Below are positions 2-18,095 of a stretch of DNA of 33,363 nt, piece after piece. The position numbers were made by a program, and so were the translations under genes. A model generated the notes under the pieces. It worked only from the letters and a program-made list of their open reading frames with translations, made no database searches and was not told where the DNA came from. Source of the stretch: an uncultured Bacillota bacterium (GTDB lineage Bacteria > Bacillota_I > Bacilli_A > RF39 > UBA660); the NCBI GenBank assembly GCA_948466255.1, contig CAOJZV010000012.1, forward strand, positions 1 through 33,363. The letters are read 5' to 3'. Position 1 is the first letter of the stretch. The number at the start of each line of letters is the position of its first letter.

Positions 2-1003
2 GGATATGTATATGTAACAGTATTATATAAAGACTATGAAAACCAACAAACAGCACAAGCAAAAACAGCAAGTATGACAATAAAATTTGATTTTGAACAA
101 GCAAGTGGAAGTGGTGGAATAATAATTGGGCCTTCTGAGGGCGATGAAACAGCATCAGATAAATTAATAAATACAGCAGTAACCTCAGGAGATGGATTAT
201 ATGCAGATACATATGAACCAGGAAGATATATATATAAAGGAGCAAACCCAAATAACTATATAACATTTAATAACGAAACATGGAGAATAATATCAGTAGA
301 AGTTGATGGATCACTTAAAATAATGAAAAAAGATAGTATAGGAAATAAAGTTTTTGATTCACCAGGTCATCGAGATGAGACTAGTAATGGAACTGGAGGA
401 ACATATTGTGCACAAGGTTTTTTTGGATGCAATGCATGGGCAACAAACAATAATTTTGTAAACGGAAGTTTTACAGGAACAGTATTAAAAGATGCGGAAA
501 TAAATACATATTTAAACAGTACAACTGATACAAACAGTTATTATAACAAATCATTAAGTAATGATGCTAAAGGATTAATACAAGAACATGCATGGTCAGT
601 GGGTTCAGTACCATATGGTAATGCAGATTTAGCAGCTCAAATCATATCAGAAAATGGGATAGTATGGAATGGTAAAATAGGGCTAATGACTGTAAGTGAG
701 GTTTTAAGGGCAAACACTAATATAACACAATGTGGTAATTTGAGTTTAAATGGTACCAATCAAGAAACATGTAAAACAACAAATTATATAATTTCATCAG
801 CGCCATCTTCGGGGAAATTATGGACTATTTCACCTGACTCGACTGGTGCAACTGCCATGGTCATTGTCGAAAGTACAGGTAGGGTGGTTCCCTTCTATGC
901 ACAGTACAATTACGGCGTTTTACCTGCAGTTTATCTAATCCCTAACATTACTCTTGAAGGAGAAGGAACAAGTGATGTTCCATATACAATAACAACAGGA
1001 TAA
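2..1003 (+). CDS. DUF6273-like secreted protein, paralog 1 (5' end outside window)
   Basis: The reading frame is open to the left edge, so the ATG at 74 is probably internal and the true start lies outside the window. The visible protein begins with a tract containing VTVLYKDYENQQ, then a Ser/Gly linker, then a block (TSGDGLY, GANPNNYITFNNETWRII) shared closely with the genes at 4483 and 17109. Further on come an INTYLN...YYN motif, a GKIGLMT strand and a C-terminal LPAVYLI. The order Trp-Arg-Ile, LNTYLN-YYN, GLM, Trp-Thr-Ile-Ser and LPAVYL resembles the DUF6273 fold of secreted Bacillota proteins. I infer that resemblance from motif order, not from a search. Paired cysteines (YC...GC; QCGN...TC) suggest disulfides in an extracellular protein. 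Codons are strongly A-ending (ATA, ACA, GGA), unlike the T-ending codons of the housekeeping genes. Function is unknown; a surface or adhesin role is inference. Confidence 0.6.
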   Translation, partial: GYVYVTVLYKDYENQQTAQAKTASMTIKFDFEQASGSGGIIIGPSEGDETASDKLINTAVTSGDGLYADTYEPGRYIYKGANPNNYITFNNETWRIISVEVDGSLKIMKKDSIGNKVFDSPGHRDETSNGTGGTYCAQGFFGCNAWATNNNFVNGSFTGTVLKDAEINTYLNSTTDTNSYYNKSLSNDAKGLIQEHAWSVGSVPYGNADLAAQIISENGIVWNGKIGLMTVSEVLRANTNITQCGNLSLNGTNQETCKTTNYIISSAPSSGKLWTISPDSTGATAMVIVESTGRVVPFYAQYNYGVLPAVYLIPNITLEGEGTSDVPYTITTG

Positions 1004-3947: not shown

Positions 3948-4346
3948 ATGAATAGAAAGAGAATGGTCGCAATTATTGTAGTGGTTTTAATATTATTAAC
4001 AGCTATAATGACATTAGTTACCTATAATAAATTTAAAAATGAAGATGTTAAAGATGTAGGTATAACTAAAGATGAAAAGGTTAATGGTTTAAATTTTACT
4101 GATACAACTTTTAAAGAAAAAGAAAGCCAGTATGTTTTACAAATGAATGTTACAAATCCGTCGAAAAAGGAAATTGATTTAAAAGAAGTAGATATTGTTT
4201 TAAAAGACAAAGATGGTAAAGAAATTGCAACTTTATTAGGATACATTGGTGAACCAATGAAAGCTAACGAAATTAGAACTATGACAATTAATGCAGCAAT
4301 GGATTTATCAAAAGTAAAATCAAAGACAATTAAAGTGAAGAAATAA
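3948..4346 (+). CDS. Membrane-anchored FxLYD-like domain protein
   Basis: This 132-residue protein has one N-terminal membrane helix (about residues 7-26) and an extracellular beta-rich domain of about 85 residues. The segment VTNPSKKEIDL followed by VDIVLKDKDGKEI and a late 'NEIRTMTI' strand matches the pattern of FxLYD-type domains (N-S/P-K, then a D-x-D-G turn, then a polar-capped strand). That assignment rests on motif resemblance only. The gene stands alone with its own promoter and terminator. Role unknown; an accessory envelope protein is likely. Confidence 0.65.
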   Translation: MNRKRMVAIIVVVLILLTAIMTLVTYNKFKNEDVKDVGITKDEKVNGLNFTDTTFKEKESQYVLQMNVTNPSKKEIDLKEVDIVLKDKDGKEIATLLGYIGEPMKANEIRTMTINAAMDLSKVKSKTIKVKK

Positions 4347-4370
4347 AGGACATATGTCCTTTTTATTTTT
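4345..4370 (+). terminator. Terminator after the FxLYD-like gene
   Basis: The stem AAAGGACAT / ATGTCCTTT (4345-4353 / 4354-4362) is a continuous palindrome followed by TTATTTTT. Confidence 0.8.
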
Positions 4371-4387
4371 CTAAACTTAAGGCTGTA

Positions 4388-4401: not shown

Positions 4402-4421
4402 CATTTTCACCTTAAAACCAC

Positions 4422-4454
4422 TTGTCAAAATCAGGGGGGGGGGGGGGGTATAAT
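4422..4454 (+). promoter_or_regulatory. Promoter with 15-G homopolymer spacer (candidate phase-variable promoter 1)
   Basis: TTGTCA (4422-4427), then AAATCA, then 15 consecutive G (4434-4448), then TATAAT (4449-4454). The spacer is 21 nt, about 4 nt longer than the optimum, so this length is predicted to be weak or off; 11 G would give 17 nt. The ATG at 4483 follows after a short leader with SD AAAGGTG. Homopolymeric spacers between -35 and -10 are an established basis of phase variation (for example vlp genes of Mycoplasma hyorhinis, porA and opc of Neisseria). Application here is inference. Confidence 0.75.
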
Positions 4455-4482
4455 ATAATTATAATAAATAAAGGTGAAAAGA

Positions 4483-5352
4483 ATGAGAAGAAGAAAAAGA
4501 AGAAAGCAAAGGAAAATGATATTAATATCAAGTTTAACATTATTATTCATAATAACAGTCGGATATGCGGCATTTCAGACAAATATAAATATAACAGCTA
4601 AAGGAAATATCCTAGAAAAAGGAATAACAATAAATGAATTAAAAAATAAAGTAACAACATCAGGAGATGGCTTATATGTGAATACATATGAAGAAGGAAG
4701 ATATGTCTACAAAGGAGCAAATCCAGATAACTATATAACCTTTAATAATGAAACATGGAGGATTATCGCTATAGAATCTGACAATACTTTAAAAATTATT
4801 AAAAAGGATAACATAGGGGCGTTAGCTTGGGATTCAGACGGAGATACCGATTGGGCAAAGCCTGCCACATTAAATACTTATTTAAATGAAACATTTTATA
4901 ACAAAATAAACGATAAAGATAGAAGTTTAATTGTTGAACATGATTTTGGGATAGGACCTGTATCTGTTAGTGATTCAAATATGATAAAACATCTCGAATC
5001 AGAAAATAGTATAAAATGGAATGGTCATATAGGACTTATGAGTGCAAGTGAAATAATAATGGCTAACTCAAATATAGAACAATGCGGAAATTTTAAAATA
5101 AATTATGATAATAGGGAGGTATGTAAAATTACCAATTATATGATTCCAAAATCAGGATTATTTTGGACTATCACTCTTAATAATGATTCCTCATTTCCTG
5201 TTTTAGGTATTACTAATGCTGGGTATCCAAGTGGAGTTGGGACTACTACTGCTACTTTTAATATTTTACCAGTAATATATATTAATTCTGATATAACTTT
5301 ATCCGGTGAAGGAACAGAAATAAATCCATATAAAATATTAACAAATAAATAA
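4483..5352 (+). CDS. DUF6273-like surface protein, paralog 2
   Basis: I chose the ATG at 4483 because SD AAAGGTG (4470-4476) sits 6 nt upstream; a longer frame from the GTG at 4474 would start inside that SD. The 289-residue protein has a poly-Arg/Lys N-terminus, a hydrophobic segment (about residues 11-30) ending VGYAAFQTNINI, and then the conserved block (TTSGDGLY, GANPDNYITFNNETWRII). A shorter variable region follows with TLNTYLNETFYN, GHIGLMS, QCGNF...VCKITNY, FWTIT and LPVIYIN. Motif order suggests a DUF6273-like domain. Unlike paralogs 1 and 3 it lacks the first Cys pair. The N-terminus implies Sec export with either a cleaved signal or a membrane anchor. Function unknown. Expression is probably set by the G-tract immediately upstream. 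Confidence 0.75.
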   Translation: MRRRKRRKQRKMILISSLTLLFIITVGYAAFQTNINITAKGNILEKGITINELKNKVTTSGDGLYVNTYEEGRYVYKGANPDNYITFNNETWRIIAIESDNTLKIIKKDNIGALAWDSDGDTDWAKPATLNTYLNETFYNKINDKDRSLIVEHDFGIGPVSVSDSNMIKHLESENSIKWNGHIGLMSASEIIMANSNIEQCGNFKINYDNREVCKITNYMIPKSGLFWTITLNNDSSFPVLGITNAGYPSGVGTTTATFNILPVIYINSDITLSGEGTEINPYKILTNK

Positions 5353-16978: not shown

Positions 16979-17008
16979 TTGCCAAACCAGGGGGGGGGGG
17001 GGTATAAT
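16979..17008 (+). promoter_or_regulatory. Promoter with 13-G homopolymer spacer (candidate phase-variable promoter 2)
   Basis: TTGCCA (16979-16984), AACCA, 13 consecutive G (16990-17002), then TATAAT (17003-17008). The spacer is 18 nt, near optimal, so this length is predicted to be active; 12 G would give 17 nt. The 20 nt upstream (TTTACT-CTTAAAACTAC) align with the same stretch of the promoter at 4422, so the cassettes are homologous. Confidence 0.75.
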
Positions 17009-17030: not shown

Positions 17031-17059
17031 TTGAATAAAGTGTTATTATTCGTTATAAT
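17031..17059 (+). promoter_or_regulatory. Second, tract-independent promoter of paralog 3
   Basis: TTGAAT (17031-17036), a 17-nt spacer and TATAAT (17054-17059) lie between the poly-G promoter and the gene. An imperfect inverted repeat (ATAATAAGCA near 17021-17030 and TGTTATTAT near 17041-17049) brackets its -35. This stretch is absent from the copy at 4422, which has only a short leader. Confidence 0.55.
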
Positions 17060-17108: not shown

Positions 17109-18095
17109 ATGAGAAGAAGAAGACGAAGAAAACAAAGAAAGATAATAATAATATCAAGTCTAACATTATTATTAATAATGACAGTAGGCTATGCCGCTTT
17201 TCAAACAAATATAAATATAACAGCTAAAGGAAATATATTAGAAAAAGGAATAACGATAAATGAACTAAAAAATAAAGTAACAACATCAGGTGATGGATTA
17301 TATAAAGACACATATGAAACAAATAGATATATTTATAGAGGAGCAAATCCAGATAACTATATAACATTTAACAATGAATTATGGAGAATAATTTCTATAG
17401 AAAATGATAATACATTAAAAATAATAAGAAACGAAAGTATTGGAAATATGCCATATGATACAGATAACAGGTATCAAGAAAATGGATATTGTAGCCATGA
17501 ATATAATAAAACTCACGGATGTAATGTATGGGGGAGTAAAACAACAATGTTAGATACGAATGGAAATAACATAACAAAATTAATGCCTTTTAATGAACAA
17601 ATGGAACGAATTCTACCTGAAAAAGAAGGTACTTTAAATACTTATTTAAATACAGAATATTATAATAACTTATCTAATGATAAAGAAAAAATAGTTATTC
17701 ATAGATGGAATGTTGGTCAAATAATGTTAACAACAAATCAAACGTTGGAAACAGACATATCTCAGGAAAAAGCAAATAAATGGGATGGGAAAGTTGCTTT
17801 AATAAATGGTTCTGATTATCTTAAAGCAAGTCTTAATAGTGAATGTAAAGGCTTATATTTTTCACGTGTAAGTCCGTATCCTTGTAAGGATATTAATTGG
17901 CTACTTAGAACTTCATGGACAATATCAAGCGGATATTTCCAACATAGTCAGTGGAATATAGCTAATAAGAGTTCTGGGGCCCTTGGCCACAGTTTTACAA
18001 ATGGTGAGGCGGGTATATATCCAACACTTCATTTAAATTCAAATATAATATTAACTGGGAAAGGTACAGAAACAAAGCCATATGTGATACATTAA
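17109..18095 (+). CDS. DUF6273-like surface protein, paralog 3
   Basis: The ATG at 17109 is chosen because AGGTG (17098-17102) is its SD; the GTG at 17100 overlaps that SD. The 328-residue protein begins with an Arg/Lys-rich stretch and a hydrophobic segment ending VGYAAFQTNINI. Up to about residue 100 it is nearly identical to paralog 2 (GITINELKNKVTTSGDGLY, GANPDNYITFNNE). After that it carries a Cys pair (GYC...GCNVWG, shared with paralog 1), TLNTYLNTEYYN, GKVALINGSDYL, a second Cys pair, LLRTSWTIS and the C-terminal PTLHLNSNIIL. Motif order suggests a DUF6273-like extracellular domain. Function unknown; a switchable surface antigen or adhesin is inference. Confidence 0.75.
   Translation: MRRRRRRKQRKIIIISSLTLLLIMTVGYAAFQTNINITAKGNILEKGITINELKNKVTTSGDGLYKDTYETNRYIYRGANPDNYITFNNELWRIISIENDNTLKIIRNESIGNMPYDTDNRYQENGYCSHEYNKTHGCNVWGSKTTMLDTNGNNITKLMPFNEQMERILPEKEGTLNTYLNTEYYNNLSNDKEKIVIHRWNVGQIMLTTNQTLETDISQEKANKWDGKVALINGSDYLKASLNSECKGLYFSRVSPYPCKDINWLLRTSWTISSGYFQHSQWNIANKSSGALGHSFTNGEAGIYPTLHLNSNIILTGKGTETKPYVIH

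Follow-up and report, generated by a model that had tools for sequence, protein, structure and literature searches.

The question raised by this locus is why a pure run of 15 G should lie between the -35 and -10 elements of a promoter in DNA of 25–30% GC, and whether its length switches the gene that follows ON and OFF. The sequence analysed here (the window, 33,363 nt) confirms the coordinates of the original prediction: the 15 G stand exactly between TTGTCA and TATAAT, and the spacer of 21 nt (4428–4448) is composed of AAATCA (4428–4433) and the G tract (4434–4448). The ATG of the controlled gene, at 4483, is placed at a normal distance from its ribosome-binding site, and a terminator-like hairpin sets the upstream gene apart from the promoter. 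The features of this locus, of a second poly-G promoter and of the paralogous genes in the window are the following:

74..1003, plus strand: third paralog, its 5' part lost at the contig start and its promoter outside the assembly
4345..4371, plus strand: intrinsic-terminator-like hairpin with T-rich tail, belonging to the upstream gene
4422..4427, plus strand: -35 element TTGTCA, equivalent to TTGCCA, TTGAAA, TTGACA or TTGCAA in about 80 sister promoters
4434..4448, plus strand: poly-G tract of 15 G inside the 21-nt spacer (from the sequence and the shuffle counts)
4449..4454, plus strand: -10 element TATAAT, found also at nearly all sister sites
4470..4476, plus strand: ribosome-binding site AAAGGTG, read from the sequence
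4483..5352, plus strand: controlled gene, with a K/R-rich N-terminus, a membrane anchor with GYAAF motif and a predicted C-type-lectin-like (DUF6273-like) domain
16979..16984, plus strand: -35 element TTGCCA of the second poly-G promoter
16990..17002, plus strand: second poly-G tract, 13 G, in a spacer of 18 nt (16985–17002)
17003..17008, plus strand: -10 element TATAAT of the second poly-G promoter
17031..17059, plus strand: promoter-like element in a long leader (TTGAAT, 17 nt, TATAAT, with the dyad GAATAA-N7-TTATTC)
17109..18095, plus strand: paralog of the 4483 gene, under the second poly-G promoter

Fourteen G8 windows were observed in this sequence versus 0.03 expected from shuffles, so that such G runs are not due to chance, and all of them fall in the two tracts of 15 G (4434–4448) and 13 G (16990–17002).

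The arrangement is repeated across the MAG to which the window belongs (1.05 Mb in 32 contigs, 68% complete), for which the genome-wide statements rest on pattern searches. A G run followed by TATAA was found at 18 sites and the reversed pattern at none, and the 117 G9 windows of the MAG are the exact sum over the tract lengths of these 18 sites; therefore, all runs of at least 9 G in this MAG are promoter spacers. The sites share the consensus TTAAAANNACTTGCCAAAACCA-G(11-17)-TATAAT. One site is doubtful, a G22 at the start of contig C6 with junk flanks, and the promoter of a further paralog (C2:61741) is alike except for a tract of only G7. A protein search gave 43 matches to paralogs of the 4483 protein, several per gene, and part of these paralogs lack a G tract.

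A search for G9+ with TATAAT in 148 genomes, comprising 43 genus mates and 104 genomes outside the genus, gave sites in 11 of the 43 genus mates, with a maximum of 29 (G013), and three single sites among the 104 others. When interrupted or shorter tracts (G5+) are counted, 15 genus mates match, a few of them with weak single sites, and G013 reaches 33 sites. Poly-G promoters are thus patchily distributed among the genus mates. Relatives of the protein belong to MAGs named 'uncultured Bacilli/Tenericutes bacterium'; these include one Candidatus Coprosoma and one record from goat colon, and the record titles indicate that the bacteria are probably gut-living. A viral origin was rejected, as viral contigs gave no match to the cassette.

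About 90 sites were read, 64 of which have enough downstream sequence to judge the gene. An anchored ORF, recognised by a K/R-rich start, a hydrophobic stretch and a GYAAF-like motif, follows in 54 of these 64 by the automatic test and in two more by eye (about 56/64); as a control, 2 of the 26 long ORFs of the window were positive, both of them poly-G genes. Some of the remaining sites also precede exported-looking proteins (prepilin-like at L139, signal-peptide-like at L151 and L176). The outer domains differ and include DUF6273, CBM_4_9, glycine-rich ALK_LTK, Laminin_G_3, BspA LRR, DUF285, PT-HINT, Collar/Gp10_C and Flg_new. Thus, promoter and anchor are common to the loci and the outer domain varies. 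With a predicted N-terminal anchor and predicted domains of extracytoplasmic type, the controlled proteins may be surface-exposed. A SipW-type signal peptide, to which the anchor is similar by eye, was discarded, as NCBIfam gave no match for three window proteins.

The 4483 product, originally described as an exported protein of unknown function, could be refined by modelling and fold matching to a membrane-anchored protein with a predicted C-type-lectin-like (DUF6273-like) outer domain. It scores 18.3 bits against Pfam DUF6273, below the gathering score of 23.5; the relatives L150 and L089 pass the cut-off, and 17 of 21 aligned family members match DUF6273 at E ≤ 0.01. The model, obtained with the window and related sequences, has a mean pLDDT of 90, and the best match in the fold search is PDB 9qa6, residues 32–306 (Z 16.4, 191 residues, 2.8 Å), followed by many C-type lectins (Z 5–6). 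A sequence search of solved structures with the window protein gave no match, the fold search alone doing so. According to the model, the outer domain, at about residues 48–290, has a C-type-lectin-like fold. The matched structure is the N-terminal domain of the Thomasclavelia ramosa IgA peptidase (PMC12237041, PMC12402451), which is C-type-lectin-like with twice the typical CTLD size (PMC12237041) and is named DUF6273 (PMC12402451). In that enzyme DUF6273 is joined to a peptidase, whereas here the DUF6273-like domain is joined to a membrane anchor, without a catalytic domain.

The tract lengths, which were taken from the assembly consensus with a possible error of one G, range from 9 to 17 G, mostly 11–15, at the sites read. 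Where two loci match perfectly over the 60-nt flanks, the tracts are of unequal length in 6 of 8 pairs; the same is true of 16 of 21 pairs with at most three flank mismatches, and most of these flank-matched pairs come from one genome (G030). Syntenic promoters of two species differ as well (G14/G12, G16/G15, G7/G11 and G12/G13), with one pair showing G13 in both. The tract varies more than its flanks, between loci and between species; on the preferred reading, its length would also change by slippage within a population. Loss of mismatch repair was rejected as the driver and would be at most a modifier, since the MAG encodes both MutS and MutL, as do nearly all genus mates; the genus mates in which no MutS was found are G013 (92% complete, and the richest in sites), G021 and G040. 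In G041, MutS is split by a stop.

Five sites with only G6–7 (G000 C2:61688; G013 C1:96134, C31:14517 and C56:445; G028 C17:19348) are all spaced exactly 13 nt, and no site was found at 14 or 15 nt. At least three of the five precede complete genes. These sites may represent locked states after collapse of the tract.

The spacing itself gives a closer view of the promoter. Across nine species, which are related and so do not count as nine independent points, the median tract length rises as the median flank length falls (rho -0.92, p = 4e-4); a within-species permutation gave p = 0.033. This anticorrelation indicates that the total spacing is held and the number of G is not, as expected of a real promoter. 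The spacing of the poly-G promoters has its mode at 19 nt, with 60 of 81 sites at 18–20 nt. Ordinary TTGACA-like/TATAAT pairs of the genus are most often spaced 17 nt apart (31 of about 111 pairs, versus 4 at this spacing with a scrambled -35, in 593 kb of partly overlapping DNA). The usual poly-G promoter is therefore placed 1–3 nt above the ordinary optimum, which can be read in two ways: either the majority of loci are weakly expressed or OFF at a given moment, or the optimum itself is shifted in poly-G promoters. Poly-G DNA has an A-like geometry with a shorter rise, which could shift the spacer optimum. Interrupted tracts are mostly found at 18–20 nt too, some of them before intact genes, and lean towards the shifted optimum: being interrupted they are more stable, and a silent spacing before intact genes would be odd. 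In tp0126 of Treponema pallidum, where a poly-G tract also lies between -35 and -10, the optimum is 17 nt (PMC7864442), and this analogy would favour weak or OFF states at most loci.

The proposal that 17 nt is good and 21 nt too long stood in part. The preference of ordinary promoters and tp0126 for 17 nt agree with it, but 21 nt is unexceptional beside the 18–20 nt usual for poly-G promoters in nine species. That 15 G in the 4483 promoter mean OFF has somewhat better than even odds. At the tract length of the assembled consensus, this promoter with its 21-nt spacer is probably weak or OFF, and the 17109 paralog, with its 18-nt spacer, is probably expressed at an intermediate level.

The best explanation of the locus, to which we assign a probability of about 85%, is a sigma-A promoter whose spacer is made variable by the tract, with slippage switching of the porA/tp0126 type acting at the scale of a regulon. 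In this scenario slippage would alter the number of G, this would alter the spacing between -35 and -10, and transcription would change with it. The same cassette stands before about 18 genes here, the genome being incomplete, and before as many as about 30 in a relative; since each controlled gene encodes the common N-terminal anchor and its own outer domain, each cell would display a random combination of surface proteins. A homopolymer lies between recognisable -35 and -10 elements in the window, in the MAG and at the genus sites, and with 15 G here and 9–17 G at most sites its length is in the hypermutable range (at least 8). The 18 sites of the MAG with none reversed, the genus-wide design, the anchored genes and the varying tracts make a phase-variable promoter well supported; the comparative evidence favours the homopolymer switching first proposed for this promoter, at a scale far beyond what had been seen then. 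The modal spacing of 19 instead of 17 nt, the interrupted and hence more stable tracts at 18–20 nt and the presence of MutS and MutL, which points to lower slippage rates, count against switching.

An alternative is a static spacer, a fixed promoter element acting through A-like geometry or as a protein-binding site, its length being no switch. The total spacing kept at 18–20 nt across species, the interrupted tracts with that spacing, part of them upstream of intact genes, and the intact mismatch repair of the MAG all speak for it. However, tract length differs between loci whose flanks are identical and covers the range 9–17; moreover, 11–15 G exceed the at least 8 G that already switch in Campylobacter (PMC6321876), and a fixed element in a genome of 25–30% GC would not need a pure homopolymer. 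We consider a static spacer unlikely. The contig ends raise the suspicion of an artefact, with poly-G arising from dark-cycle reads or collapsed repeats, as 5 of the 18 sites lie at most 120 nt from a contig end (about 40 times the expectation) and the junk flanks of the G22 site point the same way. Against this, the repeated promoter and anchor sequence would itself cause contig breaks, the tracts are always found between -35 and TATAAT, on both contig strands and never in the reversed pattern, and the sites occur in MAGs of different studies and at syntenic places in different species, which leaves an artefact very improbable.

The G tract could also be incidental to a switch by promoter inversion or recombination, for which the chances are just as slight. 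A 10-nt perfect inverted repeat (4404–4413 / 4471–4480) flanks the promoter, and at syntenic sites the flanking sequence is peculiar to each species, which is suggestive of gene conversion among the copies. Yet this repeat is not found at the second window site, one of its arms is the ribosome site, and every sister promoter read points toward its downstream gene; as no other perfect inverted repeat flanks the tract, an invertible promoter was rejected on these grounds. A three-tetrad G-quadruplex was likewise set aside as a general mechanism, since most tracts, at 11–14 G, fall short of the roughly 15 G, loops included, that by our own reasoning it requires.

The preferred reading, a slippage-variable spacer, has several known counterparts. 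In the porA promoter of Neisseria meningitidis, with 11G, 10G or 9G, expression is graded with the number of G (PMC3639595); as here, a pure G tract forms the spacer, and the protein controlled is a surface protein, which is also predicted for the present loci, but porA is one gene with 9–11 G, whereas here one cassette serves about 18–30 genes per genome, mostly with 9–17 G. In T. pallidum, as proposed here, poly-G tracts in several promoters (tp0126 and tpr) precede genes of surface proteins, some of them paralogous; in contrast, the tprL tract overlaps the -10 region instead of filling the spacer (PMC7864442), and no single common cassette takes all long G runs of that genome. The poly-G phasome of Campylobacter, in which tracts of at least 8 G already switch, resembles the present case in having dozens of poly-G tracts per gut-bacterium genome under strong selection, and differs in that 77% of the tracts are inside reading frames, where switching is translational, and not in promoter spacers as here (PMC6321876).

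Spacer slippage in promoters has been described chiefly for individual genes of pathogens, e.g. Neisseria and Treponema, and searches of open-licence papers gave no report of poly-G promoter switching in these bacteria. If the reading is correct, slippage would govern a whole surface-protein family in small-genome uncultured gut Bacilli, with some 20–30 independent switches per genome and a very large number of surface states. Commensal surface variation, against host IgA or phages for instance, would then be testable through G-run lengths in long-read gut metagenomes. More tentatively, at slightly less than even odds, the many surface proteins may form one randomly switched repertoire (about 18–30 loci per 1.1–1.2-Mb genome), with spacers usually parked 1–3 nt above the 17-nt optimum and few loci fully on in any cell, and with a promoter and anchor module that takes exchangeable outer domains; a poly-T cassette may do likewise. 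This cassette, ATTACCTTG-T(8-19)-(A)TGATA or GATATAGTGTATAC, is conserved upstream of family members without poly-G, directly before the ribosome site (G000 C14:1024-1085, C22:7265-7326 and C22:8361-8422; sites in G023 and G035; L085, L086 and L088). It contains 8, 17, 18 or 19 T and could be another variable promoter or else derive from a terminator.

Other promoter forms were seen as well. In long-leader copies (window 17031–17059; L003, L011, L016, L149, L150 and L174), a further promoter-like element that holds a dyad lies between the poly-G promoter and the gene, at a similar place across copies and species, which suggests an added regulator or a constant promoter. A G17 promoter with the dyad element (G000 C3:54932, L001) precedes a phosphoglycerate-mutase-like gene and no anchored protein. 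Finally, L097 and L098, the latter from Candidatus Coprosoma, show a G-rich interrupted spacer with a TACAATGGAATTGTACA palindrome at the -10, upstream of an anchored gene, perhaps a related form of the promoter.
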